Virus record (IMG/VR): IMGVR_UViG_3300021425_000031
Span: 1-64,000 of that record
Source of the DNA: a virus
Length of the DNA stretch: 64,000 nucleotides
Reading direction: 5' to 3' (one strand)
The notes under the pieces were generated by a model. It was given only the letters and a program-made list of their open reading frames with translations. It was not told the DNA's origin and searched no databases. Position numbers and translations under genes: made by a program. Positions 8,138-31,200 of the stretch are shown here, piece by piece. Every line of letters begins with the position of its first letter. Position 1 is the stretch's first letter.

Positions 8138-11100
8138 ATGGTGCAGAATGGTTTCGAATCAAGAGTAAAAGTACAACAAATAATTGATAGTCAATTACCA
8201 GAGTTTATTTTAGATGAAAGTTCAAAAGCATCTGAATTTTTAAAGCAATATTATATCTCTCAAGAATATCAGGGTGGACCAACAGATATTGTTGAGAACT
8301 TAGACCAATATATAAATCTCGATAGTCTCATCCCTGAGGTTATAATAGGTAGTGTTGTTCTTGAAAATAACATTACTACAACCAGTACTACAATAGAAGT
8401 AGAGAGTACTAAAGGATTTCCTTCACAGTATGGTTTATTGAAAATTGATGATGAGATTATAACTTATACTGGTTCAACTGAGACATCTTTCACTGGATGT
8501 ATTCGTGGATTCAGTGGCATTACGAATTATCATAAAGATCTCCAGTATGAAGAGTTAGTTTTTAGTGAATCTTCTGCGGCAGCACATACTTCTGGTGCCA
8601 CAATTCAAAATTTAAGTTCTCTGTTTTTACAAGAATTTTATAAAAAGATCAAGTTTAGTTTAACTCCTGGTTTAGAATCTGTAGATTTTACCGAAAATCT
8701 AAATGTTGGTAATTTCATAAAGGAAGCAAGATCTCTTTATGAATCTAAGGGGACAAATGAGTCTTTTAGAATTCTATTTAATGTTTTATTTGGAGAAACG
8801 CCAAGCGTAGTAGACTTAGAAAGATTTTTAATTAAACCATCAGACGCCAGTTTTATAAGAAGAGATGTAGCAGTAGTTGATGTTATATCTGGAGATCCTA
8901 CTAGATTAAAAGGTCAGACAATTTATAAATCTACTGACGAAAATACTAGTGCTTCTGTTTCTGAAGTGGAAGCAATTACTAGAAAGGGAAAGACTTATTA
9001 TAAACTTAATTTCTTTGTAGGTTATGATGATAGTTATCCCAACGTTACGGGAACTTTTTCAATAACACCAAATACTAAGGTAGTTGAAAATGTAACCTTA
9101 GATTCTACCAATAGTGGTGTAATTACAGTAGATTCTACTGTAGGATTTAGAGAATCTGGGTTTGTTTTTTATAATGGAAATCAAATTTTTTATACAGAAA
9201 AAACTATCAACCAATTTTTAGGTTGCTATGTAAATTCTAATCAATCTATTAATATTAACAAAAAATCATCTTTAGCATCTGATGAAACCTATTATGGATA
9301 TGAAAATGGTGATACTTCTAAAAAAGTAGAATTTATAATTACTGGAGTACTATCCAATATTATTATTGATTCTAATTCATATAGTTTTCTGGAAGGAGAA
9401 GAGATATATCCACAAAATCTTGGGCAAATTATAGAAAAAGGTAGTAGCACAAAACAAATATTTGCTAATAGTTGGATTTATAATACAAGTTCCAGATATC
9501 AACTAGATTCATTTGCAAGCAATACTATAACAACAAAATCTACAATCGATAACACAAGTTTATCTGTTGGGGACAAAATTGAAATCTTAAGAAGAAATAC
9601 TGAATCTGTAGTTACAACTTTTGATGATGTCAATGTTTTATCAATCTCCAACAATACTATTACTATCGATAAAAATACATCAGGATTGAATTCTTTAGAT
9701 AAGTATGATATTAGAAGAAAGGTTAAAAAGGTATCATCTTCATTAGTACCTATTCAATTTGGGAATGATAAGATAACATCAGATGTGCAAAATGTTTATT
9801 CTGAAAATTCCAAAGATCTTTATGTATCTTCTAATTCACTTCCATCATATCCTTTACAAACAAATGTTTTTGAGTATACTGTAATTGGTTTGTTAGAAAA
9901 AAGTGAAAATGAAAATTATAGTGTTATTGATTTTGGAATTAATCAGGTAGTTTCTTTTATAACTGGAGATAGGGTATATTACTATCCAGATGAAACTGGT
10001 TTAATAGAGGGTTTAGAAGAGAGAGATTACTATGTTGAAGTCTTAAAGAATGATGATGTTGATGTCAGCAATCGCAGAATTAGACTTTACTTGAGCAATC
10101 CTAGTATTGGATCAGACGACTATGTTTCTTTTGGAAAATTATCTAATGGAGTTGTAACTGGAACACATAAATTTGTATTATACTCTCAAAGATCAAAATT
10201 AATTTCTCCACAAAAACTTCTTAAAAAGTTTAGTATAGAGCAGACAATTGGTAATAATAAAATATATGAAACCATTCCTGGACCAATTGGTCTTTTGAAA
10301 AATGGAGTTGAAATATACAACTACAAAACAAATGATAAAATTTACTATGGCCCATTAGAAACTGTTAATGTTTTAAGTGGTGGGAGTGGATATGATGTTA
10401 TAAATCCACCCTCTCTTACTTTATCTAGTGGAAGTGCTCTTATACAACCTGTAGTAAAAGGATCTGTTGAAAAAATATTTGTAGACCCGCAAGATTTTGA
10501 TATTGATATTGTAGTCTCTATAACACTAACAGGTGGAAATGGATTTGGGGCAAGTTTTGAACCAGTTATAGAAAAATTTGTTAGAGAAATTGAATTTGAT
10601 GCTAGACCAATTTCTAGTGGAGGTGGATTAGATTCTATAAATGAAAGAATCGCATTTACAAAAAATCATAACTTAACTAATGGTCAACCAATTATCTACA
10701 ATAGTAACAATTCTAGTGCTATAGGAATTGGAACTTTTGGTGGATCTGAGTTAGACCAGTCTAAAACTTTGTTAAATGGATCCACCTATTATCCAAAGGT
10801 AATCAATGATAGAACTATAGAAATATATGAATCTTTTTCCGACTATGCTTCTGGAATCAATACGGTAGGATTTACTACTATTGGAAATTCTGGTATTCAG
10901 AAATTTAAAACTAATCTTACAAATAGACTAACAGGAATTAAAGTTATTGATGGTGGAAGTGATTATAGCAATAGAAAACTTAGAGTCAAACCAGTTGGTA
11001 TTTCTACATATACTCACACTGTAGAATTTAAGAATCACGGATTTTCCGATGGAGAAATTGTAACATATACTTATGAAACTAATGGAATAGTCGGTTTATC

Positions 11101-14100
11101 GACATTAAATAGTTATCAGATATTAAAGGTAGATTCTGATAAATTTAGACTTTGTAACGCTGGTCTTGGAGGAACAAATCAAACAAATTATCAAGTAGGT
11201 AATTATGTAAAGTTTTCAACCACTGGTTCCGGATATCAAATTTTTAGTTATCCTGATATTGTTTTATCAGTTGATTATACTTCTGTTGGTTTGGGAAGTA
11301 CTCAAGTTAAGGGATCTATTGTTGCAACTCCAATAATTAGAGGTGAAATTGACCAAGTTTATGTTTATGAGAAAGGCTCAGATTATGGTTCATTAGTTTT
11401 AAATAATCACCAAAGACCACAAATTATTCTTAAGAATGGAAAAGATTCACAATTTAAACCATTAATTCAAAATGGTAGAATTGTTGGTGTAACTATCTTA
11501 TACGGTGGGCAAGATTATTACTCTACTCCAGATTTAATTGTATCTGGCAGTGGTATTGGTGCAAATCTTAGACCTGTAGTTTCTAGTAATAAAATTGTAG
11601 ATGTGATTGTTGTTAATTCTGGTGCAGGTTACAGTAGCACAGATACAGTTATTCGTGTTATTCCTGCAGGTAAAAATGCAGTCTTTGAATCTAACGTAAG
11701 ATCTCTAACACTCAATAATTCATATAAGTATGGTATTCAAAATGAGAATTATAGAGATCCTGCAACAGAAATATTGATTGGGACTGAAAATAATCTAGAA
11801 TATGCAGTTGTTGGATATTCTGAATCTCTAAAGAATAATCTAAAAGATTCTGGCGGTAATACTACACACTCCGATATTATTGGTTGGGCATACGATGGAA
11901 ACCCAATTTATGGTTCTTACGGATATTCAGATCCAAATAATACTGGAAATATTAAAAAATTAGAACCTGGATATTCTCTGGCAACTATCGAAAATAGACC
12001 ATCTACTTCTATTTTCCCTACAGGATACTTTGTTGAAGATTATGTGTTTACTGATAGTGGGGATTTAGACCAATATAATGGCAGATTCGGAAAAACTAAA
12101 GATTTTCCAGAAGGTGTCTATGCATACTTTGCAACAGTTGAGGATAATATTCAAAGTCAGTCTGTCGGTAAGTTTCCATATTTTATTGGAAACGAATATA
12201 GGTCTCCATATCTTAAAGAAAATCTTTCATTAAATCAATCATTTGATTTCAATAATTCTTCTTTAATTAGAAATACTCTTCCATATAAGGTAAATGATGA
12301 ATATGCTGATAACGATTTTATTGTAGAATCAAATGAAGTTATAGAGCAAAAAACTCTAATCGAATCTGTTTCTTCAGGAAGCGTCTCTTCATTACAAATA
12401 GTTAACTCTGGATCCGACTATAAAGTTGGGGATGAAATATTATTTGATGAAACTGGGACAGAAGGTGGTGGAATATATGCAAAAGTATCTAAGGTAAAAG
12501 GAAAGCAAATTAATCAAATTGATACTAATATAGAATCTTATGCAGATTCGGTCATAACTTGGGAAAATGGCAATACTGTAAGAGTTCAAGTATTTCCATA
12601 CCACGAATTTTTGAGTGGAGACAATATCAATATATCGGGATTATCTACACAAGTTTCCAATTTAAATGGATCTTATAAAATAGGTCTTATAACTTATTCG
12701 ACAATACTAGATAAAGAAATTCCCGCATATGCTTCCACAGGAATAGTTACAGATATTTATCTTTCTTCAATACCTGAAACTGTTTCTATTGGAAGTAGTT
12801 TTAAAATTGATGGGGAAATTTTCTCAATTCTAAACATTTATAACAACTTTGGTGTTGTAAAGGTAAGTAGAGATACAAGCGGAGGTATACACACTCAAAC
12901 TACACCAGTATATTTTCTTTCAAATACATTTACTGTTAATAACTCTGGGGATTATTTTGAATCTAAGGTAAATGATAAAGTTTATTATAATCCTACAAAG
13001 TCTGTAGGAATCGGTACTACTCCTGGTACAGGAATCAATGTAAATTATAATATTGGCATAACGACATATAGTACTTTTATACCAACTCAAAGTATTTTTA
13101 TACCAAATCACCCATTTAAAACTGGACAGAAAGTAATCCTTAGAAAACCAAGTGGTGCTAACCCAATATCAGTTTCAAATACTTCTACCAGTGCTTCATT
13201 TAATATTTTAAGTGGAGATAGTGAAACTTTATATACGATTAATAAATCTAAAGACTATATTGGATTGGTAACTAGTATTGGATTTACAACTAACACAAGT
13301 GGACTATTCTTTAGAAATACCAATTGGTCTGCAGCAAATGATAATTATCAGTATTCAATAGAATCTAATTTTGAGCAAATCAAAGTAGATATCAATAAAA
13401 TAAACGCTGTTGTTTCTGTATCAACATCTCATCAACTGGAAATTGGTAATAGAGTATCTTTAAATGTAAAACCAAATTTATCGGTAGGTATAGGAACTTC
13501 AACTGCTATAAGAGTTAAGCGTAACTCGTTAATTGATAATATTATTATAAATCCCATTGGATTCAGTTCTTCAGGGATTAGTACAGAAACTAATCAAATT
13601 ACAATAAATTCTCATGGACTTAAAACTGGCGACAAAATTTTATATCAGTCAGAATCTATTCCATCTGGCATAGAAACTGGTACTTATTATGTTTATAAAG
13701 TAGATGATAATACTATAAAATTGTCTGAAACTTACTTAGAATCTTCTAGTGCTTACCCATCTTTTGTAAACTTGATAACTACTGGAATTGGTGCTCAGGA
13801 AATTAGTTTAGTAACCCCACAAATTCAAATTGCAAAAAATAATAATTTAGTATTTGATTTATCAGATTCTTCACTTTCTGGTTATGAATTAAAAATTTAC
13901 TATGACAACAATTTCAAAAAAGAATTTGTCTCAGTTGCAACTACCAATTCTTTATCAGTTTCTGGTATTGGAACTGTAGGAGTATCTGCAAATGCATCAT
14001 TAACTTTAAACTATACTAATTCAGTTCCAGAAAAACTCTATTATAATTTAGAAAAGTCTGGATATATCAGCACTGCAGATACTGATGTTGTTAACTATTC

Positions 14101-17100
14101 TGAATTATCATTTTTTGATAGTGTTTATAATGGAAATTATACTGTAGTTAGTATTGGGGATACTACTTTTACTGTTTCTCTAACAAATAGTCCAGAAAAT
14201 CTAAATTACAAAAAAGAAGAATGTGATGTATTAGAGTATTCTTCAAACTCTACTTCAATAATTGGGGGAATTGGAGAAGTAAATCTAATTTCCGGAGGGT
14301 ATGGATATAAGTTACTTCCTAGATTTGTAGGATCCGATTCTGCATCTGGTGAGGGTGCGTATATCGTACCATCTTCGGATAATATTGGTAAGATAACTCA
14401 AAGTAGAATTATAAATGAAGGATTCGAATATGCTTCAGATAAAACTTTAAGACCAACAGCAACTATTCCACAATCAGTTTATATTTCTTCATCAAATACT
14501 ATTGATACTATCACAATTATAAATGGTGGGCAAAATTATACATCTGCTCCAGATTTAATACTGGTTAATTCTGATACAGGAGAACTCATTGATTCTGGAT
14601 TCTTAAAGGCAAATTTAACTGGGTCTTCTATCGGTGAAGTGGAAATTGAAGTAGAACCTAAGGGATTACCTATTAAACCAGTTACAATTAGGGCAATTAA
14701 TAATTCCAATTCAGTATCGATAGACAAGGTAGAGTCTTCTTCATCTGGAATAGTTACTTGTATTTTGACCACACCAATTGCAGGATTTACATCCGCACCT
14801 TTTGCAGTTGGGGATAGAATATTTGTTGAAGGAATTGAAAAAACAGATTCTTCTGGAGACGGATTCAACTCCGAAAATTATGGATATAGATTTTTTACAG
14901 TAACAAATTATTTTGGATTAAATCCGGATAAACTTGAGTTTAGTGTTTCTGGATTAACAACTAATCCTGGAGTAGCAAAAACTATTCAAGAATCATATGC
15001 ATCTATCACAAATTATAAAAATTATCCTGAGTTTGAAGTTACTCAAAAGTTTTTACCATTCTCCGTTGGAGAATCTTTAGAATCAGATAGTGGATTAGGA
15101 TTCCAGTCGAGAGATTTGATTGTTACCGCGTGTGATGAAAATACAGTAAGAGTAACAGGAAATTATAAACTTTCTCCAAATGAAAGAATTAGAGGATTGC
15201 AATCTTTTAGTGAAGCAACATCTGATGTAGTTTCCACTACTGAAGGAATTTACAATATTGACTATTTTAATCTTCAAAATTTTGGATGGAGAGAGGAAAC
15301 TGGCAAACTTAATAACGATTCTCAAGTAACACCCGATAATGACTACTATCAAAATCTTTCATATACAGTAAAAAGTAGTAAAACTTGGGAAGAAATAGTA
15401 ACACCAGTTAATAACTTGTTGCATACTAGCGGTACAAAGAACTTTGCAGATACACAACTATCTCAAAGTACACAGTCTGGTATAGGAATTACCGAATCTA
15501 CATTATCACTTGTTAATATGTTTATTAGTGATAACAGAGTTGATACTATTAATAATTTTGATCTTGTTTTTGATGTAGACATTTCAAACAATAGATCTAA
15601 ATTTGTAAAATTTGATACTATTAAACTTGTAGATTATATCACATGTAAAACTAATAGAGTTTTAAAAATCGATGATGTTAGTTCACAATTTTCTAGTACA
15701 GATGATGTGAGAGAAAATGTATCTAATATACTTCCATTAAATTTTTCCAATGGATATAATAGATTTTTAATTCAGGTAAGAGGCATATTTGATCAAGAAA
15801 CTCAATTTACTGAAATAGTTTCAATTAATAACTCTCAAGATATTTTTACATTAAACAAGGGAGAAATTTTTCTAGGAAACAATGAGAAGTATGATCTATC
15901 ATTGGCAGATATTAGAGGTTATGTTGATGAGTCCGGTAAATTTTATTTAAGGTTTGAACCAGAAGATCCATTTGATACTTCTTTTGAAATTAAAATATTG
16001 CAAGACACCTTTATAAGTAATTCCGAAAGTGGATCAACAGTAAGTTTAAATTGTATTGATTTAATATCACAAAACAAAACAGTCTATAGCGGAATAACTA
16101 CAGATATTATAAAATTAGATTCAGGAAAATATTCTTCAATTTATTCAAATATTCATTTATTGAACAATGATGGTTCTAAAATGAATTATGTTGAGCTTTA
16201 TTTGACTCATGATGGAACAAATACTTATATTTCAGAATATTACTTTGATAATGAAGATTCTGATAGTTATGAATCTATTGGAGAATTTAGTGCTTCATTA
16301 ACTGGGGGAATGTTAACTCTAAATTACACAAATACAGAATTTGAAAACATAATATTAAAATCTAAGAATATTGGATTTGGAACAACAGCACTTGGCGAAG
16401 ATTTTTATAGATTTAAACTTCCCGGACAAATAAATGGAAATGAAAGAACGGTTGTTTTTGAATCAAACTATAATAATGTTTCTTCTGGATCAACAAGTGT
16501 GTTTATTTTAGATAAAAACTTATTTACATCAGTAAAATCTGTGGTGCGTATAGGGATGGGAGAAACTAGTGCCTTACATCAAGTTATGGTAGTCTATGAT
16601 GGTTTGGATGTTTCTACTTTACAATATCCATTCTTGTCTATTGGAAGTACTAGTGGCATAGGTACTTTTGGAGCGCATGTTGATTCAACAAATATTGTTC
16701 TCAATTTTTATCCTGATCCATCTATTAGTTCAGATATTGAAATAATTTCTTTTAATGAATGTTTTTATACTTTTGTAGATTATATAAATACGCCTCCAGA
16801 CTTAGTTTATTCTCCATTAAAACAATCTGTAAAAACTTCATCATATTATGGATCTAATTCAGCACTTCTCAATAAATTAGATTTTGAAGCAAATTATGAA
16901 GGAAATCCAATATTTATGAGAACTTTTGATCCATCAGATTCAATTGACTTAGTTACCGGCATATGCACAATTCCAAATCATTTTTTCAATACTGGTGAAG
17001 AAATAATTTACAGTCCAAAATCTACTTTTATTGGAATTGGTGCTTCTGCTTTAGGCATAGGGGCAACTGAAAATTATGTTGGAGTAGTTACAACTATACT

Positions 17101-19888: not shown

Positions 19889-19893
19889 CTTCA

Positions 19894-19901
19894 TATAAAT
19901 A
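19894..19901 (+). promoter_or_regulatory. Late promoter TATAAATA before gp8
   Basis: An exact T4 late box, 20 bases before the gp8 ATG and just after the giant gene's stop. A second TATAAAT overlaps the ATG itself (19916-19922). It lets gp8 and the following genes be made independently of the 11.7-kb gene upstream. Confidence 0.75.
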
Positions 19902-19920
19902 TATAAAAACATCGATATAA

Positions 19921-21486
19921 ATGTCTGCACTTGTAACAGATCAATTTAGAATTTTAAACACCAGTAATTTTATAGAGTCTGTAAATGATACTACCGATTC
20001 TTATTATGTTTGGGTTGGTCTACCAAATCCAAACATATACACAGGATTTGGTAGAAATATAAATTGGGATGGTGGTGATGGAGTAACTGAAAATATTGTT
20101 CCAAATCCCATAGATAATTTAGATTATGTACCACATTATGAAAGTACAATTCTTTTTGGAAAAAAAATAACATCTTCAAACATAAGAAGAGTTATAAAAA
20201 GAGTAGATTGGGTAAGAGGGAAAAAATATGATATGTATAGACATGACTATAGTATTACAAATCTTAGTCCTATAGCAAAAAGGGCAAGACTATATGATTC
20301 GGAATATTATGTAATCAATAGTGACTATAAAGTTTATATTTGTATTCAAAATGGATCTAGTGGTATCAATACAACTGGAAATCAGTCATTATATGAACCA
20401 ACACACACCGATTTAGAACCTACCATTGCAGGTACTGGTGATGGATACTTGTGGAAATATTTGTACACAGTTTCTCCTGCGGATATTGTAAAATTTGATT
20501 CTACGGAATATGTCACATTACCAAATGATTGGAGCACATCTACAGATCCACAGATTGTTTCTGTGAGAGAAAATGGAGATTCTACAATAAATGATAATCA
20601 AATAAAAACAATTTATATTGATAATCCCGGAAGTAATTATCAAAATTCTGCAGAAGTTGATATTTTAGGTGATGGAATTGGTGGTAGAGCATATGTTGAA
20701 GTAAATGCAAATGGTGAGATAATTAATGTTAATGTTACTTCTGGCGGTAAAGATTATACTTATGGTATTGTCGATTTGGGATCTTTACAACCAGGTGGGA
20801 ATATTTCAAATCCAGCAAAATTAATTCCCATAATTCCACCATCTAGAGGTCATGGTTATGATTTATATAAAGAACTCGGCGCAGACCGAGTAATGATTTA
20901 TAGTAGATTTGATGATTCTTCTAGAGATTTTCCAATCAACACCAAGTTTTGTCAGATAGGAATATTAAAAAATCCCAGTAGATTCATATCGACAGAGACC
21001 TTTACAAACTCCGAATTTTCTGGTCTTTATGCAATTAATTTTTCCTCTGTAAATGATACTCTTCCAATTATAGGTGAGAAAATTATACAGACTAATACTG
21101 GAGCAGTAGGATATGTTGCATCATATGATTCTGATACTAAAATATTAAAATATTTTAAAGACAGATCTTTGCATTATGGCCCAACATATGATCAAACAGA
21201 TTATGTTGGAGTTTCTACAGGAGGAAATGCAAATATTGATTTTAGCAATGCTGGAGGGAACATAATTGGTCAAAATAGTTCATTTGTTGGACAAATTTCA
21301 TCCTTTAGTGGAATAACTACAACAGTAAACAATTCAATCATAAATTTAGGAGTTACATTTACAAATGGACTTGCAAATCCTGAGATAAATAAAAAGACGG
21401 GAGATATAATTTATATTGATAATAGACCCCTCGTTTCCCGCAATATTAGGCAAAAAGAAGACATTAAAATTATCCTGGAATTTTAA
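19921..21486 (+). CDS. gp8: Baseplate wedge subunit gp8
   Basis: 521 residues (T4 gp8 334). The N-terminus has the gp8 signature: DQFRILNTSNFIESV, TDSYYVWVGLPN, then TILFGKKITSSNIRRVIKRV and KKYDMYRHDYS, and DGYLWKYLYTVSPADIVKF. gp8 bridges gp7, gp6 and gp10 in the wedge. The extra length is mostly residues 225-300, which hold two G-x-[GD]-Y repeats (PGSNYQNSAEVDIL, GGKDYTYGIVDLG) like those in the giant protein and gp14. The next gene begins 3 bases after the stop. Confidence 0.9.
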   Translation: MSALVTDQFRILNTSNFIESVNDTTDSYYVWVGLPNPNIYTGFGRNINWDGGDGVTENIVPNPIDNLDYVPHYESTILFGKKITSSNIRRVIKRVDWVRGKKYDMYRHDYSITNLSPIAKRARLYDSEYYVINSDYKVYICIQNGSSGINTTGNQSLYEPTHTDLEPTIAGTGDGYLWKYLYTVSPADIVKFDSTEYVTLPNDWSTSTDPQIVSVRENGDSTINDNQIKTIYIDNPGSNYQNSAEVDILGDGIGGRAYVEVNANGEIINVNVTSGGKDYTYGIVDLGSLQPGGNISNPAKLIPIIPPSRGHGYDLYKELGADRVMIYSRFDDSSRDFPINTKFCQIGILKNPSRFISTETFTNSEFSGLYAINFSSVNDTLPIIGEKIIQTNTGAVGYVASYDSDTKILKYFKDRSLHYGPTYDQTDYVGVSTGGNANIDFSNAGGNIIGQNSSFVGQISSFSGITTTVNNSIINLGVTFTNGLANPEINKKTGDIIYIDNRPLVSRNIRQKEDIKIILEF

Positions 21487-21489
21487 GAA

Positions 21490-24400
21490 ATGGCACAAAA
21501 GACAAACCTAAATGTAAGTCCTTATTTTGATGACTTTGATGCCCAAAAGAATTTTTATAAAGTTCTTTTTACTCCAGGAAGACCAGTACAGGCAAGAGAA
21601 TTAAATAATATTCAATCAATATTACAAAATCAAATTGAATCTTTTGGAAGTCACATATTTAAAGAAGGATCTGTAGTAATTCCAGGGAACACTACTTATG
21701 ATCCCAATTTTTTTGCAGTTAAGTTAAATTCAACATCTTTTGGCGTTAACATATCAGCATATATTGATCAATATATTGGAAAACTAATCGAAGGTCAAAT
21801 TTCTGGTGTTACTGCATCAGTCCAGAAAGTTGAAGTTCCAAATTCATCTAATGGATTAGATTATGTTACGTTATATGTAAAATATATAGATTCTGATAAT
21901 GATTTTAATTTCAATCCATTTCAAGATGGGGAATCATTAGTTTCTAATGAAAGTGTAGTTTATGGTAACACTACAATTACATCTGGAACTCCTTTTGCAT
22001 CTTTAATATCCACTGATGCTACTGCTATAGGATCTGCAGCTTCCATTAATGATGGAATTTATTTTGTAAGGGGCACTTTTGCAAATATAACCAAGCAAAC
22101 TATTATTCTTGATTATTATTCCAATACTCCATCATATAGAATAGGATTAAAAGTATCGGAAGAAATTATAACCGCTAAGGAAGATTCTTCTTTATATGAT
22201 AATGCAAAGGGATTTACAAACTATGCAGCTCCTGGGGCAGATAGATTTAAAATAGGATTATCTCTCACTAAAAAAACTTTAGATGGTGTTGATACTGACA
22301 CTGATTTTATTGAAATTCTTAGAATTGAAAATGGTGAGATTAAGAAAGTTAATACTAAAACACAATATTCAACAATAAGAGATTATCTAGCCCAAAGAAC
22401 TTTTGATGAGTCTGGAAATTATTCAGTAGAACCTTTTAAAATTTCTTTACACAATTCTCTTAATAATAGACTTGGCAATAATGGACTATTTTTTGACAAC
22501 CAGAAAACAGAATATGGAAATAATCCATCAGATGACTTAATGTGTGTAAAGTTGTCTCCAGGAAAAGCATATGTTAAGGGTTATGATATAGAAAAAGTTA
22601 CTACTACTATTCTCGATGTAAACAAACCAAGAGAAACTCAGAATGTAGAAAACGTAAATATTCCTTTCGAAATGGGAAATTTACTTAGAATTAATAATAT
22701 AACAGGATCTCCAAAGCAAAATGAGTCCGTAGAAATTCACTCCGTCAGAAGAAGTGATTCTGGCAACCCATCTGCAAATACAAAAATTGGAGATGCTAGA
22801 GTTTATAATTTTAGATTAACTGATGCTGCATATTCTGGAGCATCTACCAATTGGGACTTATACCTTTACGATATACAAACATATACTACCTTAGTATTGA
22901 ATCAAGGTCTTTCTGCAGTAGAATTGCCAGAATCATCTTATGTAAAAGGTAAAAGCAGTGGAGCATCTGGATACGCCGCTGTTGCTGGTGATGGTACAGC
23001 AACAGTTAAGTTGAGACAAACATCGGGTATTTTTGTAAGAGGTGAGCAATTAATTATCAATGGATTGGAGTTATATCCAAGATCTATCTCTGAAATAACT
23101 GTATATGATACTTCCGACATTAAGCAGATTTACCAACCAACATCTGTTTCTGGATTTACCACACCATTTATTGGAGACTCTGTATTAGATAGACAACTTC
23201 CCATTGGGTTTAATGCTTCAGATACTATCAACATCACTGCAGGTGGTGTAGTAACTTCTCCCGGAAAGTTTTTTAACACTATCAAACCTGGTTCTATAGT
23301 AAGATTCCAGGCACCAGATAAAACAACTGAAACTTTTAATGTTGTCTCCAGTGTAAATTCTACTGGAACATCTATGGTTGTTGCAGGGATTGCTACAGTT
23401 ACGGGTGTTTGTGATGGTGGAGTAGGAGTTGCGACAAATTTATCATTTAGTTTAGGAATACCTAAGATTAGAAATTCAGATAAGGGATACTTATATACAG
23501 AATTGCCAAATAAAAATGTATCTCAAGTAGATTTAAATGATTCTATATTAACTTTTAGCGCACAATCTACAAGTGCGAAGTCATCGAGTAGTCCAATAGT
23601 TCTATCAGTATCAGACTTTTCTCTTTCTTCAGGACTGTCAACCGCATTATTTGCATCATTTGATGAAGAGCGTTATTCAGTCCATTATACTGACGGAACC
23701 ACACAATCTCTAACTTCTGACCAATTTTCCCTATCAAATAATCAAGTAACTTTATCAAATCTTACAACAGGAAAAACAACCTCATCAATTAATGCCACCT
23801 TTATCAAGAATGGTGTACAAAGCAAGCAAAAACAATTTAATCGCAGCGAGTCTATAAATGTAGTTTATTCTAAATACCCAGAATCTGGTACAGGAATTAG
23901 CACTTCAATTAACGATGGTTTAGAATATAATCAGTATTATGGACTTAGAGTACAAGATGAAGAGATTTCTCTCAACTATCCTGATGTATCAAAAGTCTTG
24001 GCAGTTTATGAATCTTTAGACGCATCAAATCCATCTGTAGACACTTTATCATTCAGTGTAATTTTAAATATTGGAGAAAATGCAATCATAGGTGAAAATA
24101 TTTTAGGATCAGAAAGTGGTTGTATTGCTAGAGTTATATCTAGATCTACTAATAGTGTTGGAATTGTTTATCTAAATTCAAATCGCTTTAATGAAAATGA
24201 GTCTGTAACTTTCCAGGAATCAAATATTGTTGGTGAAATTGATTTTCTAACTCCAGGAAATTATAATGACATCACTAATAAATTTATTTTAGATAAAGCG
24301 CAAAAAGAACAATACTATGACTATTCAAGACTTGTTCGTAACGAAGGAGAAACTGAACCATCAAAGAGATTATTAATTGTATTTGACTACTACACCATAC

Positions 24401-27400
24401 CTTCAACTGATAATGGTGATGTATTTACTGTGGCAAGTTATAACAAAGAGCAATTTGCTTCAGATGTACCTTTAATCGGAAATAATATTAGAGCGACAGA
24501 CACATTAGATTTTAGACCAAGAGTTTCTGTTTTCTCAGCAAATACTTCCTCCCCTTTTGATTTTTCTAATAGAGATTTTAGTTCTTCTATCAAGTTAAAT
24601 CTAACACCCAACGAAAGCACTATTCTTGGATATGATTGCTATCTTGGTAGAGTTGATAAAATTTATTTGAATAAAAACGGAGAATTTATCTACCTGGAAG
24701 GATTGTCATCCATAAGTCCAAAATCCCCATTAAAGACTGATGATTTAATGGAGTTAGGAACGATTACTCTTCCCCCATATCTTTACAATGTCAAGAATGC
24801 TATATTATCTCTTGTAGATAATAGAAGATATACTATGAGAGACATTGGATTGATTGAAAATCGAGTAAAAAATCTTGAGAGGGTAACTTCATTATCACTT
24901 TTAGAATTAAGCACGCAAACACTTCAAATACAAGATTCTGAAGGATTTAACAGATTTAAAACTGGATTTTTTGTAGATGACTTTAAGGATTTTTCAAGAA
25001 TAAACAATTTATTTTCATCAATTGAAATTGATTCAGATTTTCAAGAGATGAGACCCATCATCTCTAGAAATAGTTTAAAAAATTATCTTGCACCAGCACA
25101 AAATATAACAGATGAATCTTTAGACTTATCTACAAACTATAGTCTCTTAGATTCAAATACTCAAAAAACTGGAGATACAGTTTCACTCAAATATAGTCCT
25201 GAAAAATGGATATCACAACCATTGGCAACTCAGGTTGAAAACGTAAACCCATTCCATGTAGTATCTTATAGTGGAACGATAAAATTGTCTCCAGAAAGCG
25301 ATAATTGGGTTAGAACAATACAGTTGCCCGATAAAACAGTTTCTGTTACTGATTATGTTTTAGTCGAAAGATCTAGAGTTGAAGTTGGATCTAGAAGTGT
25401 AAGAGTAGCAAATTGGGATAGAAGGGGTCAAATTGAAACATCTATTGAAGTGTCTCAAAATACAACTAATTCCACAAATACAACTACATCATCTTCAAGT
25501 GTTACTACATTAGTAGAATCTAGACCTGAAGAATATATGAGATCTAGAAATACTGAATTTTCCATTTCCAATTTGAAACCATCTACGGAATATTATCAAT
25601 TCCTAGATGGAAACGGGTCTGTAGACTTTATTCCGAAACTTATTGAAATATCGGATAGTTCTTCTTTACAAAATCCTGGAGCATCATCTACATTTTCAAT
25701 CGGAGAAACTATTTTTGGATATGATTCAACAAATAATAAAATTATTTCCTTCAGAGTTGCGCGACCAGATCACAAGTTTGGGGCATATAATTCTCCAACC
25801 ACATCATTTACTATAAATCCTTATATTAAAACAGAGTCTCTACCAACTACATATAGTAATTCTTCAAAAGTATTGAATGTAGACACTTATTCATTATCAG
25901 AAGAAGCACAGGGTTTATATTCTGGATATTTAGTTACAGGTGCAAAACTTGTTGGACAAACAAGTGGTGCCATAGCATATGTAAAAGATCTTAGACTAAT
26001 ATCTGATAACTTTGGAGATTTAATAGGATCTTTCTTTATCAGAGATCCAAATACTTCACCTGCACCTGACGTTAGAATTAATACAGGAAATAAAACTTAT
26101 AAAGTCACATCAAGTCCTACAAACGAAACTGCAGCACCTGGTAGTACTTCCATTTCTAGTGCCTCTACCAACTATGTTTCAGAAGGAACTCTAGAGTTAT
26201 ATGAAACTACTATTACAAATACTACTACAGTAACTACCACTAGAACTACGACTACAACTATAACAAATGTTACAACTGAATTTTATGATCCTTTAGCACA
26301 GTCGTTTAGTGTTGGTGGAAGTGAAACTGCAAATGACGAGGAGGATGGTGCTTATTTAACAGGTGTAGATTTATTCTTCTATAAAAAAGACACTAATAAT
26401 AATCCTCTAACAGTTCAAGTAAGAACTGTAGAACTTGGAACTCCAACAAGAACGGTTATTGGAAATCCAGTTACATTACGACCAAATCAAATTAATATTT
26501 CAGATGATGCATCTGCAGTAACTGAAGTAACATTTGATTATCCAATTTATCTTGCTCCTGGACTAGAATATGCAATTGTCCTCCTTGCTCCAGAAAGCAT
26601 AGAGTATGAGGTTTTCATTGCAGAAATGGGTAAAAAGACTATTCAGTCTGCAAATCTACCTGATGCTAATGCTGTTGTTTATAGTCAACAATTTGCTTTG
26701 GGAAGTCTATTTAAGTCTCAAAATGGATCTATATGGACAGCAAATCAATATCAAGATATGAAGTTTACACTATATCGTGCAAACTTTGTAACAGATACTC
26801 CTTCTACAGCATACTTCTATAATCCAACTCTAAATGAAAGTAATGGATATATCAAAAATCTCCAAAATAATCCGCTAACTGCACTTCCTAGATTGTTGAG
26901 TGTTGGTATTACAACTACCACCGATACTAATGCTATTAGCATCTTGACCACTGGTAGAAAAGTAAGTGAGAGCATAAAAACATATAATTATGGATATATC
27001 GTCGGCAAAGGATGCTCAGTATCTTCTGTCGGAGTAACTACAAGTGGATCTAATTATGTTACAGATTCTGATGTATCTACATTCAATATTATTGGTAATG
27101 GATCTGGTCTCACTTTAAATATTACTGCTTCTGGCGGTGGAATTACTGCTGCTACTGTAGTAAATCCTGGAACAGGATATGCAATCGGAGATGTTGTTGG
27201 TATTGTAACTTCTTCAGTTTCCAGTAACAGTGGAAGAAACGCAACTATAACGATTACTGGCAATAACAATGGGGTTGACACTTTATATCTGAGCAATGTC
27301 CAAGGCAACTCTTTCACTGCAGATGGAACGGCAAACTTAGTCTATTACGATAACTCAAATAATTCAGTAACTATGGGATCTACTTATATTACAAGTTCAA

Positions 27401-28767
27401 CCCCCACTGGATCTCTATATAATGGCAATTTTGTTAAGGTAAATCACTTTAATCATGGAATGTATGCAGCGAATAATAAAGTTTCCATCTCTGGAGTTTT
27501 ACCAAATGTTATTCCAACCACATTATCTCAATCTATAACTGCATCTTCTACAACCATTTCTGTTGCAAATGCATCAAACTTTGCGACTTTTGAGGGTAAA
27601 GCAGTTGGTGAAAGTAATCCTGGATATGCTATCGTCGAAAATGAAATTATTAAGTATGAAAGTGTTGGATCTGGTACATTAGAAACAATAACAAGAGCAC
27701 AATCATCCACACTCGCAGTTCCTCACGACACTAATTCACAAATCTATAAGTATGAATTTAACGGAGTATCCTTAAGAAGAATTAATACAACTCACGATAT
27801 TAGTGATTTTGGTTTAGATATCGATAGTTACTATATTGAAATTGATAGGACTTCTAATGGTGTAGATAGAAGTGTAGATAATACTCCTACAGGTTATCCA
27901 CAACTTTCATTTGAAACTGAATTAAATTCTGGTGGGAATAATGTTTTTGCTACAGAAAATATTCAATATGATTCTATTATTCCATTTTATAGGATTATAT
28001 CTCCAACTGATGCGACTTCTGTGTCCGCAAAAATTAGAAGTGTAAGTGGAACAAGTATATCAGGAAATGAAGTATCATTCAACGACTTAGGTTATGAGGA
28101 TATACAACTTAATTCCTTAAATCAATTGTCTTCCACAAGAATTGTTTGCTCAAAAGTCAATGAAGATACATATCTAACTACTCTTCCTAGAAATAAATCT
28201 TTTACTACCGCAGTTACTTTACAAACAAACAATAAGTATCTATCTCCACAAATATTTTTAGATAATTGCTTCACAGATTTCCACAGTAACAGAATTAATT
28301 CACCTATATCAAATTATTCCACCGACAACAGAGTTAATTCAGTTATTGAAGATCCACATTCTTCTGTTTATGTATCTAATACCGTTATACTATCACAGTC
28401 TGCAACTTCTCTAAAAGTCATACTATCTGCTTATAGACATTCTTCTGCCGACTTTAGAGTTCTTTATAGTTTGATTAGACCTGATTCCAGCGAAATTGCT
28501 CAAGCATTTGAATTATTCCCAGGATATGACAACTTAACTATAGATAATAATAATGATGGATATTTAGATATAGTAAATCCAGCAAACAATAGTGGATTGC
28601 CAGATACCTTTGTAAGAAGCGGTAAGGATAATGAATTCTTAGAATATGAGTTTTCTGCTAATAATCTTGGCGAATTTAGTGGATATATAATTAAAATTGT
28701 TATGTCTTCAACTAATCAAGCATATCCTCCAAGATTTAAAGATTTAAGGAGCATTGCAATCAGATGA
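21490..28767 (+). CDS. DUF4815 virion structural protein
   Basis: 2425 residues. The N-terminus (KTNLNVSPYFDDFDAQKNFY, VLFTPGRPVQARELNNIQSI) is the DUF4815 domain found in tail or baseplate proteins of T4-like cyanophages, where the position corresponds to T4 gp9/gp10. Later parts: a Ser/Thr-rich linker at about 1320-1345, a long Thr-rich tract near 1575-1600 (TITNTTTVTTTRTTTTTITN), then a conserved-looking FYDPLAQSFSVGG region and a GVDLFFYKKD strand region, two G-x-[GD]-Y repeats (about 1850 and 1890) and one EIIKY/TRAQ module (about 2035-2100). Probably a large peripheral baseplate or fibre-attachment protein; exact T4 equivalence is uncertain. Confidence 0.8.
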   Translation: MAQKTNLNVSPYFDDFDAQKNFYKVLFTPGRPVQARELNNIQSILQNQIESFGSHIFKEGSVVIPGNTTYDPNFFAVKLNSTSFGVNISAYIDQYIGKLIEGQISGVTASVQKVEVPNSSNGLDYVTLYVKYIDSDNDFNFNPFQDGESLVSNESVVYGNTTITSGTPFASLISTDATAIGSAASINDGIYFVRGTFANITKQTIILDYYSNTPSYRIGLKVSEEIITAKEDSSLYDNAKGFTNYAAPGADRFKIGLSLTKKTLDGVDTDTDFIEILRIENGEIKKVNTKTQYSTIRDYLAQRTFDESGNYSVEPFKISLHNSLNNRLGNNGLFFDNQKTEYGNNPSDDLMCVKLSPGKAYVKGYDIEKVTTTILDVNKPRETQNVENVNIPFEMGNLLRINNITGSPKQNESVEIHSVRRSDSGNPSANTKIGDARVYNFRLTDAAYSGASTNWDLYLYDIQTYTTLVLNQGLSAVELPESSYVKGKSSGASGYAAVAGDGTATVKLRQTSGIFVRGEQLIINGLELYPRSISEITVYDTSDIKQIYQPTSVSGFTTPFIGDSVLDRQLPIGFNASDTINITAGGVVTSPGKFFNTIKPGSIVRFQAPDKTTETFNVVSSVNSTGTSMVVAGIATVTGVCDGGVGVATNLSFSLGIPKIRNSDKGYLYTELPNKNVSQVDLNDSILTFSAQSTSAKSSSSPIVLSVSDFSLSSGLSTALFASFDEERYSVHYTDGTTQSLTSDQFSLSNNQVTLSNLTTGKTTSSINATFIKNGVQSKQKQFNRSESINVVYSKYPESGTGISTSINDGLEYNQYYGLRVQDEEISLNYPDVSKVLAVYESLDASNPSVDTLSFSVILNIGENAIIGENILGSESGCIARVISRSTNSVGIVYLNSNRFNENESVTFQESNIVGEIDFLTPGNYNDITNKFILDKAQKEQYYDYSRLVRNEGETEPSKRLLIVFDYYTIPSTDNGDVFTVASYNKEQFASDVPLIGNNIRATDTLDFRPRVSVFSANTSSPFDFSNRDFSSSIKLNLTPNESTILGYDCYLGRVDKIYLNKNGEFIYLEGLSSISPKSPLKTDDLMELGTITLPPYLYNVKNAILSLVDNRRYTMRDIGLIENRVKNLERVTSLSLLELSTQTLQIQDSEGFNRFKTGFFVDDFKDFSRINNLFSSIEIDSDFQEMRPIISRNSLKNYLAPAQNITDESLDLSTNYSLLDSNTQKTGDTVSLKYSPEKWISQPLATQVENVNPFHVVSYSGTIKLSPESDNWVRTIQLPDKTVSVTDYVLVERSRVEVGSRSVRVANWDRRGQIETSIEVSQNTTNSTNTTTSSSSVTTLVESRPEEYMRSRNTEFSISNLKPSTEYYQFLDGNGSVDFIPKLIEISDSSSLQNPGASSTFSIGETIFGYDSTNNKIISFRVARPDHKFGAYNSPTTSFTINPYIKTESLPTTYSNSSKVLNVDTYSLSEEAQGLYSGYLVTGAKLVGQTSGAIAYVKDLRLISDNFGDLIGSFFIRDPNTSPAPDVRINTGNKTYKVTSSPTNETAAPGSTSISSASTNYVSEGTLELYETTITNTTTVTTTRTTTTTITNVTTEFYDPLAQSFSVGGSETANDEEDGAYLTGVDLFFYKKDTNNNPLTVQVRTVELGTPTRTVIGNPVTLRPNQINISDDASAVTEVTFDYPIYLAPGLEYAIVLLAPESIEYEVFIAEMGKKTIQSANLPDANAVVYSQQFALGSLFKSQNGSIWTANQYQDMKFTLYRANFVTDTPSTAYFYNPTLNESNGYIKNLQNNPLTALPRLLSVGITTTTDTNAISILTTGRKVSESIKTYNYGYIVGKGCSVSSVGVTTSGSNYVTDSDVSTFNIIGNGSGLTLNITASGGGITAATVVNPGTGYAIGDVVGIVTSSVSSNSGRNATITITGNNNGVDTLYLSNVQGNSFTADGTANLVYYDNSNNSVTMGSTYITSSTPTGSLYNGNFVKVNHFNHGMYAANNKVSISGVLPNVIPTTLSQSITASSTTISVANASNFATFEGKAVGESNPGYAIVENEIIKYESVGSGTLETITRAQSSTLAVPHDTNSQIYKYEFNGVSLRRINTTHDISDFGLDIDSYYIEIDRTSNGVDRSVDNTPTGYPQLSFETELNSGGNNVFATENIQYDSIIPFYRIISPTDATSVSAKIRSVSGTSISGNEVSFNDLGYEDIQLNSLNQLSSTRIVCSKVNEDTYLTTLPRNKSFTTAVTLQTNNKYLSPQIFLDNCFTDFHSNRINSPISNYSTDNRVNSVIEDPHSSVYVSNTVILSQSATSLKVILSAYRHSSADFRVLYSLIRPDSSEIAQAFELFPGYDNLTIDNNNDGYLDIVNPANNSGLPDTFVRSGKDNEFLEYEFSANNLGEFSGYIIKIVMSSTNQAYPPRFKDLRSIAIR

Positions 28768-28958
28768 TGATACCAGTAAAAGGACACCCAAACTTGTATA
28801 GGGATGAAGAATCTGGAGCAATTGTCAACTGTGACAATACTTCCTATAATCAATATGTCAATAGTTTGAACAATAGAAAATCCCAAAAGATGGAATTGGA
28901 TCAAATAAAAAAAGATATTGAAGAAATAAAAAATTTATTAAAACAAATTCTAACGTAG
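28764..28958 (+). CDS. Small conserved protein before gp13
   Basis: 64 residues, overlapping the upstream stop (ATGATGA; the second ATG at 28767 is equally possible). An N-terminal KGHPNLYRDEESGAIVNCDN portion is followed by a coiled-coil-like helix (SQKMELDQIKKDIEEIKNLL). Small proteins of this form occur between the tail-structure genes and gp13 in cyanophages as I recall. It could be an assembly or trimerisation factor; no function known. Confidence 0.7.
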   Translation: MMIPVKGHPNLYRDEESGAIVNCDNTSYNQYVNSLNNRKSQKMELDQIKKDIEEIKNLLKQILT

Positions 28959-28969
28959 AGGTATGATTA

Positions 28970-29809
28970 ATGTCAAAACCTTCAAGTAAACAAGAATTAA
29001 TAGAATACTGCTTGAGAAAACTAGGATATCCAATCTTAGAAATTAATTTGGCAGATGAGCAAATAGATGATCTAGTAGATGATGCATTACAATATTTTAA
29101 TGAAAGACATTTTGATGGTGTAGAGAGAATGTATTTAAAATACAAAATAACTCAAGAAGATATTGATAGGGGAAGATCAAGAAATACATCAGGTGTTGGG
29201 ATAGTGACAACTACAGGTACTTCAACAATAGATGGAGTATCCAAAGAGTTTAATTTTTATGAAACTTCTAATTATATTCAAGTACCAGATTCAATAATTG
29301 GTATTGAAAGAATTTTTAAATTTGATACCAGTTCAATCTCTGGAGGAATGTTTAGTATTAAATATCAATTATTTTTAAATGATTTATATTATTTCAATTC
29401 CGTTGAACTTCTTCAATATGCAATGGTAAAAAGTTACTTAGAAGACATTGATTTCTTGTTAACAACTGATAAGCAAATTAGATTTAATAAAAGACAAAAT
29501 AGACTATATTTAGATATAGATTGGTCATCACAATCTGCTGATAACTATATTGTTATAGATTGCTATAGAATTTTAAATCCAAATGATTTTACAAAAATTT
29601 ATAATGATAGTTTTTTGAAAAAATATTTGACTGCTTTAATGAAGCGCCAGTGGGGGCAAAATTTAATCAAATTCAGAGGCGTTAAACTTCCTGGAGGTAT
29701 AGAATTAAATGGTAGAGAATTATACGAAGATGGAGAAAAAGAGATTGAAAGTATAATGCAAAAAATGTCAACAGATTACGAACTTCCACCATACGACTTT
29801 ATTGGATAA
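28970..29809 (+). CDS. gp13: Neck protein gp13
   Basis: 279 residues (T4 gp13 309). Characteristic segments: KQELIEYCLRKLGYPILEIN, EQIDDLVDDALQYFNERHFD, then LLQYAMVKSYLEDIDFLL, and a C-terminal helix with WGQNLIKFRGVKLPGGIELN. gp13 forms the ring under the portal and, with gp14, completes the head for tail joining. Its TAA overlaps the gp14 ATG by one base. Confidence 0.93.
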   Translation: MSKPSSKQELIEYCLRKLGYPILEINLADEQIDDLVDDALQYFNERHFDGVERMYLKYKITQEDIDRGRSRNTSGVGIVTTTGTSTIDGVSKEFNFYETSNYIQVPDSIIGIERIFKFDTSSISGGMFSIKYQLFLNDLYYFNSVELLQYAMVKSYLEDIDFLLTTDKQIRFNKRQNRLYLDIDWSSQSADNYIVIDCYRILNPNDFTKIYNDSFLKKYLTALMKRQWGQNLIKFRGVKLPGGIELNGRELYEDGEKEIESIMQKMSTDYELPPYDFIG

Positions 29810-31200
29810 TGGCACTCAATCCATTTTTTTTACACGGATCTCCAAACGAGCAAAGGCTTGTCCAAGAATTAGTAAATGAACAACTTCGCATGTACGGTGT
29901 AGAAGTAATTTATATTCCAAGAAAATTTGTTCGTAAAGAAACTATTATAAAAGAAATATCTTCATCAAAATTTGATGACAATTTTGCTATTGAAGCATAT
30001 TTAAATAATTTTGATGGTTACACTGGTCAGGGAGATATATTAACGAAATTTGGAATGAATTTAAGAGATGAAGTTAGTTTAATTATTTCAAAGGAAAGAT
30101 TTGAGGATTTTATCGCTCCATTTTTAGAACAAGATGATCCGGAAATAGAAATTTTTTCTAGACCTAGAGAGGGTGATTTAGTATATTTTCCCTTGGGTCA
30201 AAGAATATTTGAAGTTAAATTTGTCGAGCATGAAAATCCTTTTTATCAATTGGGAAAATTATATGTTTATGAATTAAAATGTGAACTATTTGAATATGAG
30301 GATGAAATGGGAGGTTGGAATGATATTAATACTACTGTTGAAGAAATTGATTCTACTCTTGAAAATAGAGGATATATCACTACATTAAAACTCATATCTT
30401 CAGGAAGACAAGCGGTTTCAACTGCAAATACTGCTACTGGTTATATTAGAAAAATTATACTAACTAATGACGGTTATGGTTACACTTCAACACCAACTAT
30501 AGGTATTTCTACAGCTCCTGTTAATGGAATAGATGCATCAGCTGTGGCATTCACAAAATGTATAAATGGGGTGTGCTCTGTTAAGGAAATTCTTTTAACA
30601 AATTGTGGATCTGGATATACTATTGCACCAGAAATTACTATAAATGGTGTTGGCGTTGGAGCAGCTGCTACATCTATTTTGGTTACAAATTATAATGGAA
30701 TAAGAACAGTTAGTATTGGTGATTCAGGTAATGGTTACCCAGATTCTCCTACCATAACTTTTGAATCTCCTACCGTAGGATTAGCGATAACCGCAGTTGG
30801 AAGAGTTTTAGTTAATGATGAAGGACAAATATCTCAAGTTTTACTTTCTGACGCTGGTATTGGATATACTCAAAGTCATCAAGCTATTATTAGTCCTCCA
30901 CCAGTCTTAACTGGCATTGGAACATTCATATTTAATGAAGTTATAACAGGTTCTATTTCCGGAGCATCCGCTAGAGTTAAAAGTTGGGATAAAGATGAAA
31001 ATATTCTTAAAGTTGGCACAACTAAAGGTCAATTTAAATCTGGAGATGTCATTACTGGTCAAACATCTTCGGCCTTATATTCTCTTAAAGAAATAAGAAA
31101 TGCAAAGTTTGAAGATAAATATGGTGACAATGATCAAATTGAATCAGAAGCAGATTCGATATTAGATTTTTCAGAATCAAATCCATTCGGTACTTATTAA
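29809..31200 (+). CDS. gp14: Neck protein gp14 with an inserted repeat domain
   Basis: 463 residues against 256 in T4. The first 190 residues (NPFFLHGSPNEQRLVQELVN, RMYGVEVIYIPRKFVRKETI, PREGDLVYFPLGQRIFEVKF) and the acidic end are gp14-like. Residues about 205-370 are an insertion of four G-x-G-Y repeats (NDGYGYTSTPTI, NCGSGYTIAPEI, DSGNGYPDSPTI, DAGIGYTQSHQA). The repeats resemble those in gp8 and the giant tail protein. gp14 sits between gp13 and the tail terminator gp15. Both ends overlap neighbours by one base. Confidence 0.92.
   Translation: MALNPFFLHGSPNEQRLVQELVNEQLRMYGVEVIYIPRKFVRKETIIKEISSSKFDDNFAIEAYLNNFDGYTGQGDILTKFGMNLRDEVSLIISKERFEDFIAPFLEQDDPEIEIFSRPREGDLVYFPLGQRIFEVKFVEHENPFYQLGKLYVYELKCELFEYEDEMGGWNDINTTVEEIDSTLENRGYITTLKLISSGRQAVSTANTATGYIRKIILTNDGYGYTSTPTIGISTAPVNGIDASAVAFTKCINGVCSVKEILLTNCGSGYTIAPEITINGVGVGAAATSILVTNYNGIRTVSIGDSGNGYPDSPTITFESPTVGLAITAVGRVLVNDEGQISQVLLSDAGIGYTQSHQAIISPPPVLTGIGTFIFNEVITGSISGASARVKSWDKDENILKVGTTKGQFKSGDVITGQTSSALYSLKEIRNAKFEDKYGDNDQIESEADSILDFSESNPFGTY

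Follow-up and report, generated by a model that had tools for sequence, protein, structure and literature searches.

A repeated beta unit, mostly paired, in neck and baseplate proteins of a relative of Synechococcus phage S-SRM01, probably inserted as surface decoration

A homologous unit of about 39 residues with a G-x-[GDN]-Y turn, here called module A, recurs in four virion proteins of the phage examined in this study, and we consider it likely that it is a mobile beta unit, mostly paired, which is inserted into the surfaces of virion proteins as decoration. The stretch of DNA analysed (64,000 nt; the window) is part of a 66.6-kb virus record, and its close relative is Synechococcus phage S-SRM01. 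The four host proteins, in window coordinates, are the following.

8138-19888, plus strand: giant baseplate protein, 3,916 residues (phrog_2885, 'baseplate wedge subunit')
19921-21486, plus strand: gp8 (PF09215)
21490-28767, plus strand: DUF4815 protein, 2,425 residues (PF16075; named 'VriC' in S-SRM01)
29809-31200, plus strand: gp14, neck (PF11649)

By strong PHROG matches, the giant, gp8 and DUF4815 proteins are members of phrog_2885, phrog_438 and phrog_358, respectively, and the gp14 array matched phrog_460, the gp14 family. These are clusters of whole proteins, in which the shared repeat unit is unnamed. As separate features of the window, we noted a YHYH domain (PF14240, 5.9e-25) at residues 1236-1338 of the giant protein (11843-12151), and a 551-codon open frame on the minus strand (54209-55864), antisense to an ORF of 714 residues (53804-55948), which is probably a by-product of codon use.

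A preliminary description of this DNA had proposed that repeats of the form hydrophobic-x-x-x-G-x-[GD]-Y-x-x-x-P-x-[IV]-x-[IV] occur about twelve times in the giant protein, twice each in gp8 and the DUF4815 protein and four times in gp14. Taken literally, this pattern matched gp14 twice (residues 218 and 263; 0.000 in shuffles) but proved too strict for the other three proteins, in which it had no match. The short motif G-x-[GD]-Y was found 11 times in the giant protein, where 2.6 occurrences were expected, and 4 times in gp14, against an expectation of 0.26. We constructed a profile HMM with gp14 homologues as the sole training set, and used 1,200 composition shuffles and reversed sequences as controls, the best of which reached 5.8 bits. 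Segments at residue 2122 of the giant protein (10.9 bits), 228 of gp8 (10.6 bits), and 1115 and 1153 of the giant protein (7.1 and 6.0 bits) all exceeded this value. An HMM further trained on relatives, with the window left out (modA), gave 31-34 bits for the four gp14 units, 17-26 bits for giant units 1115, 1153, 1415, 2044 and 2122, 11.4 bits for giant 742 and 20.8 bits for gp8 228, against 6.9 bits for the best shuffle of equal composition. Among all window ORFs of at least 50 codons, strong matches were confined to three, all of them virion genes; the tail sheath of the window (812 residues) had no module A.

The DUF4815 pair stayed below significance with the modA HMM (6.1 bits versus 6.9 bits for the best shuffle). 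Profile-profile comparison by hhalign, using an alignment of 33 sequences, gave 88.6% at residue 1885 and 42.8% at residue 1844, with shuffled columns reaching at most 1.7% and two other stretches of the same protein staying under 1%. With homologues included, hhalign gave 89.5% at giant 3368 and 59.5% at giant 931 (column-shuffled controls, at most 2.4%); giant residues 770-830 received no hhalign support, and the unit placed there comes from alignment. The units assigned to module A in the window, all on the plus strand, are as follows.

30442-30549, plus: gp14 unit 1, residues 212-247; modA HMM 34.0 bits, AlphaFold2 pLDDT about 90
30577-30675, plus: gp14 unit 2, residues 257-289; 30.9 bits
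30697-30807, plus: gp14 unit 3, residues 297-333; 34.2 bits
30829-30945, plus: gp14 unit 4, residues 341-379; 31.6 bits
20602-20703, plus: gp8 unit 1, residues 228-261; 20.8 bits, PHROG cross-match to the gp14 family
20719-20820, plus: gp8 unit 2, diverged, about residues 267-300; 3.3 bits alone, seen in relatives
10361-10435, plus: giant unit, residues 742-766; 11.4 bits, best shuffle 6.9
10463-10573, plus: giant decayed unit, about residues 776-812; alignment with relatives L138 and L146, no support from hhalign alone
10934-11002, plus: giant unit, residues 933-955, strands parted by an inserted C module; hhalign 59.5%, insert absent in L146
11354-11461, plus: giant unit, about residues 1073-1108; alignment of relatives, hhalign only 9.9%
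11480-11584, plus: giant unit, residues 1115-1149; 25.9 bits
11594-11692, plus: giant unit, residues 1153-1185; 20.7 bits
12380-12487, plus: giant unit, residues 1415-1450; 23.1 bits
14267-14374, plus: giant unit, residues 2044-2079; 17.2 bits
14501-14581, plus: giant unit, residues 2122-2148; 23.3 bits
18239-18352, plus: giant unit, residues 3368-3405; 7.7 bits, hhalign 89.5%
27016-27129, plus: DUF4815 unit 1, about residues 1843-1880; hhalign 42.8%, column shuffles at most 1.7%
27142-27252, plus: DUF4815 unit 2, residues 1885-1921; hhalign 88.6%

The profile built without the window and the profile-profile comparison, measured against shuffles, bore out the occurrence of the repeat in all four proteins, including the four copies in gp14 and the two in the DUF4815 protein. 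Of the twelve positions named in the giant protein, about eight stand alone, and the alignment of relatives shows 1077 clearly; 2091, 3331 and 3439 were individually not significant. The first gp8 copy was clear; the second was not when scored alone, though it is visible in relatives. The idea that gp14 and gp8 exceed their T4 counterparts by roughly the repeat region held for gp14 (207 residues over the T4-type protein, with an array of about 168) but not for gp8 (207 residues over, with a pair of only about 75), in which part of the surplus beyond the pair is a second shared module. The PHROG search also connected gp8 with the gp14 family (5e-7), and in it the gp14 array matched 17 families, which comprise neck, wedge, hub, fibre and structural proteins. 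A tblastn search of phages with the repeat consensus gave no match, which we do not take as absence because the low-complexity filter is the likely cause; a literature search for the motif letters found nothing.

Besides module A, at least three more modules (B, C and D) are either common to several of the four proteins or present in several copies. Module B (consensus GE.I.G..SGA.A.V.SWD....L.V....G.F..GE.I.G) occurs in gp14, gp8 and the DUF4815 protein. Module C ([HN]HGL..G..I.Y...YYV.KVD..TI.L, or [HN]HG...G..I.Y....YYV.KVD..TI.L) was observed in six copies between residues 605 and 3005 of the giant protein (9950-17152), and it was not among the Pfam matches for that protein. Module D (T.I.V.....F...G.L.I..EII.Y......RG...) was observed three times in the giant protein and once in the DUF4815 protein. 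From this distribution, the four proteins have several parts in common, not one.

30910-31083, plus: gp14 module B, residues 368-425, start overlapping unit 4; modB HMM 79.1 bits (the gp14 copy is the model seed)
21067-21288, plus: gp8 module B, residues 383-456; 41.9 bits, best shuffle 9.3
21775-21954, plus: DUF4815 module B, residues 96-155; 25.0 bits
22936-23061, plus: DUF4815 module B, residues 483-524; 26.0 bits
24079-24231, plus: DUF4815 module B, residues 864-914; 41.1 bits
9950-10090, plus: giant module C, residues 605-651; 26.1 bits
10649-10843, plus: giant module C, residues 838-902; 56.5 bits (model seed)
11024-11158, plus: giant module C, residues 963-1007, nested in a module A unit; 43.3 bits, absent from L146
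13097-13276, plus: giant module C, residues 1654-1713; 26.4 bits
13604-13735, plus: giant module C, residues 1823-1866; 47.4 bits
16970-17137, plus: giant module C, residues 2945-3000; 30.7 bits
8378-8563, plus: giant module D, residues 81-142; 66.8 bits (model seed)
9104-9298, plus: giant module D, residues 323-387; 55.9 bits
17342-17563, plus: giant module D, residues 3069-3142; 22.9 bits
27541-27756, plus: DUF4815 module D, residues 2018-2089; 70.6 bits, best shuffle 10.0

The number and placement of module A units differ among related phages. The gp14 proteins of S-SM1 and S-WAM1 have no unit and an uninterrupted module B, that of ACG-2014b has two units, that of ACG-2014f about three, that of the window four and that of L065 six; RB7 (T4-type) and PhaxI lack both A units and module B in gp14. 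The ACG-2014b pair divides module B into two parts (model positions 2-15 ahead of it and 19-57 behind it), while the four-unit array of the window precedes an intact module B. Since these sites differ relative to module B, the two arrays are probably independent insertions, which is the simplest reading of the sequences. In the giant protein of the window, one A unit has a C module nested within it, which the distant relative L146 lacks. The gp8 pair is present in every cyanophage compared, and is degraded in ACG-2014f.

We searched whole genomes with the profile. S-SRM01 has 14 places in seven virion proteins, namely gp14, the giant protein, gp8, VriC/DUF4815, the hub lysozyme, the distal long tail fibre and a wedge subunit; S-SM1 has 24 places, ACG-2014b 26, S-WAM1 19 and ACG-2014f 11. 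The whole genomes of RB7 (T4 group) and the Ackermannvirus PhaxI have no unit. Tail tube (PF16460; L162, L280) and sheath proteins (L164, L192, L308, L313) of other viruses and prophages are also interrupted by units. The tubes at L162:3581-4381 and L280:3575-4384 are of the lambda type, and their Pfam domain is broken by an inserted A pair, which in L280 follows roughly profile position 101. In all 80 loci fetched from cellular genome assemblies with the consensus query, the profile trained on cyanophages found units, with none in shuffled ORFs; some of these loci are prophage genes, and none of the 80 has module B, C or D. Three proteins of 1,459-2,207 residues, from archaeal Methanoperedens (L187), Omnitrophota (L161) and Neobacillus (L172), carry multicopper oxidase domains together with 9-22 A units. 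The structure of Anabaena myophage A-1(L) has a wedge insertion domain, but a text search did not find the repeat there. The view that baseplate and neck were colonised by one exchangeable beta module finds support in homology, in the strand order common to gp14 and the giant protein, in presence and absence among phages and in the two gp14 sites, but its scope was too narrow in view of the hub lysozyme, long tail fibre and further wedge protein of S-SRM01, the tubes and sheaths of other phages, and modules B-D.

AlphaFold2 models of gp14 residues 190-430 (pLDDT about 80-95) and giant residues about 734-1191 (block means mostly about 90) predict the shape of a unit. In both, a long strand leads through the G-x-G-Y turn to a short strand of about 4 residues and then to a second long strand, from which the chain turns into the next unit. 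The shallow alignments gave poor models of the T4-like gp14 core and the YHYH part. The gp14 insertion, whose fold the preliminary description had left to prediction, is thus modelled with the same three-strand unit as the giant protein, and the strand order suggests that the units of both have one fold. Foldseek against solved structures gave no significant match for the giant-region model, and none for the gp14 model except T4 gp14 for the core; weak eIF2-gamma and SelB fold matches of gp14 were not significant and were set aside. A viral structure library returned many phage structural proteins, some of them named as P22 gp10-like, baseplate wedge or neck proteins. The gp14 model also matched, by fold, a protein of the giant virus Sylvanvirus, BFVD A0A3G5AH46 (E 1.8e-5).

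Exactly two units make up 106 of the 204 non-redundant contiguous arrays, and arrays of at least three units are even in 45 cases and odd in 23; part of the set was collected with the pair as query, which biases two over one but not four over three. Odd arrays and single units also occur, and unit spacing peaks sharply at 39 residues. These counts point to two units, together about 78 residues, as the natural exchange piece, and we infer that such a pair probably forms a single six-stranded beta barrel or sandwich.

Fraser and colleagues, as cited in PMC10684548, are said to have described, in 2006, promiscuous Ig-like domains in tailed phages. Phage Ig-like domains are small beta domains, exchanged horizontally among many virion proteins, and are thought to aid weak surface contact. 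Like module A, they are inserted into varied virion proteins; module A differs in having no Ig-family sequence match, in consisting of two homologous units of about 39 residues and in being extendable into arrays. None of 15 diverse pairs matched any Pfam model at E 0.01, nor did the gp14 array. Module A is absent from the domain databases searched, though one crystal structure probably contains it.

The candidate structure is the tailspike Dpo31. Its residues 450-506 were the top match of our first PDB profile search (17.6 bits, E 0.025, a weak score), with both half-motifs at the unit spacing. A broader profile lowered the match to E 0.086, behind unrelated chains, and it is therefore likely rather than proven. 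The BURRH and sarcosine oxidase matches in the PDB were rejected as chance similarities of repetitive or nucleotide-binding glycine loops. The region lies in domain D3* of Dpo31 from podovirus Carin-1 (PDB 28lx, 28mg and 8ck1), which spans residues 434-536 and is inserted, protruding and soluble alone (PMC13317679). It is termed Ig-like there, with DALI Z-scores of at most 2.9 (2.8-2.9) to sugar-binding domains, and the passages of that account considered here mention neither a repeat nor relatives in other proteins (PMC13317679). As both GxGY half-motifs lie at unit spacing inside this inserted domain, as in a module A pair, D3* probably contains one such pair.

Domain I of the T4 sheath gp18 is a six-stranded barrel with a helix, inserted and solvent-exposed (PMC3004832); it corresponds to PF22639, residues 98-188. 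Three predicted strands in each of two units would likewise give six. Compared with the pair profile, the domain I region of 25 T4-group sheaths gave 65.6%, which is below the usual cut-off; the reversed alignment gave 0.1 and shuffles at most 8.3%, with 0 of 60 reaching the observed value. The first half of the domain resembles a unit, whereas the second is degenerate and carries the helix, unlike a module A pair. In the sheath at L308, the array follows the N-terminal part of domain III, which is the slot of gp18 domain I. PF22639 matches neither the 15 pairs nor this sheath; the RB7 sheath does match it. These suggestive similarities are consistent with the idea that T4 sheath domain I may be a distant relative of module A.

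Three other explanations need to be weighed. The unit is short and rich in G, S, T and V, and its weak copies are individually insignificant, as would be the case if G/T/V-rich beta repeats in unrelated proteins had become alike through composition. Such convergence is nevertheless very improbable, since hundreds of real units reach a threshold that no shuffled ORF of equal composition does, their spacing is sharply defined, strong window matches fall only in three ORFs, all virion genes, and the whole genomes of RB7 and PhaxI have no unit. We also think it unlikely that the repeats are ancestral, duplicated internally and lost in T4-type phages with no movement between genes. Tandem copies in one gene arise easily by unequal recombination, and the ubiquity of the gp8 pair among the cyanophages, despite its degradation in ACG-2014f, would fit; against this, gp14 has two sites relative to module B, B is unbroken in phages without units, and the unit is found inside unrelated domains (tail tube, sheath and probably a tailspike).

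Membership of module A in the known phage Ig-like domains of the Big, PKD or fn3 types would agree with the same way of use and with the authors' term for D3*. We nonetheless doubt it, because none of the 15 pairs matched a Pfam Ig-like model at E 0.01, the pair has an internal two-fold repeat, Foldseek gave no significant Ig match for either model, and the DALI Z-scores reported for D3* are just 2.8-2.9 (PMC13317679).

The best reading, by analogy, is that the module A pair is used like the promiscuous phage Ig-like domains. A pair would insert into a surface region of the host protein, leaving its assembly domain in place and adding a decoration that protrudes; pairs would be gained, lost and multiplied, and could land within other modules. 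In the window phage, the parts decorated in this way would be the neck, through gp14, and the baseplate, through the giant, gp8 and DUF4815 proteins. We infer that module A is solvent-exposed there, and surface decoration fits the kept assembly domains, the outward slots in sheath and tailspike and the variable unit number. The role would be weak contact with glycans on the host surface, or stabilising or spacing of the baseplate, rather than catalysis. For glycan contact, the only hints are the D3* resemblance and the comparison with Ig-like domains of phages (PMC9230969); a stabilising or spacing function in a large baseplate seems equally possible. A wider proposal, which we find possible while leaning slightly against it, is that the pair, as a mobile piece of one origin, spread into tube, sheath, neck, baseplate, hub, fibre and tailspike proteins and also into large proteins of bacteria and archaea, and that T4 sheath domain I is a diverged member of this family.

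Cyanophage baseplates contain giant proteins with almost no annotated domains, and the module profile makes many of their decorations recognisable at once; it also marks out predicted surface inserts in neck, sheath and tube proteins. The Dpo31 crystal structure may already hold the module A fold, unrecognised. Module A offers a direct test of whether phages draw on a shared stock of plug-in beta domains beyond the Ig-like ones and, if the single origin including T4 sheath domain I is true, decorations now treated as unrelated would be kin.
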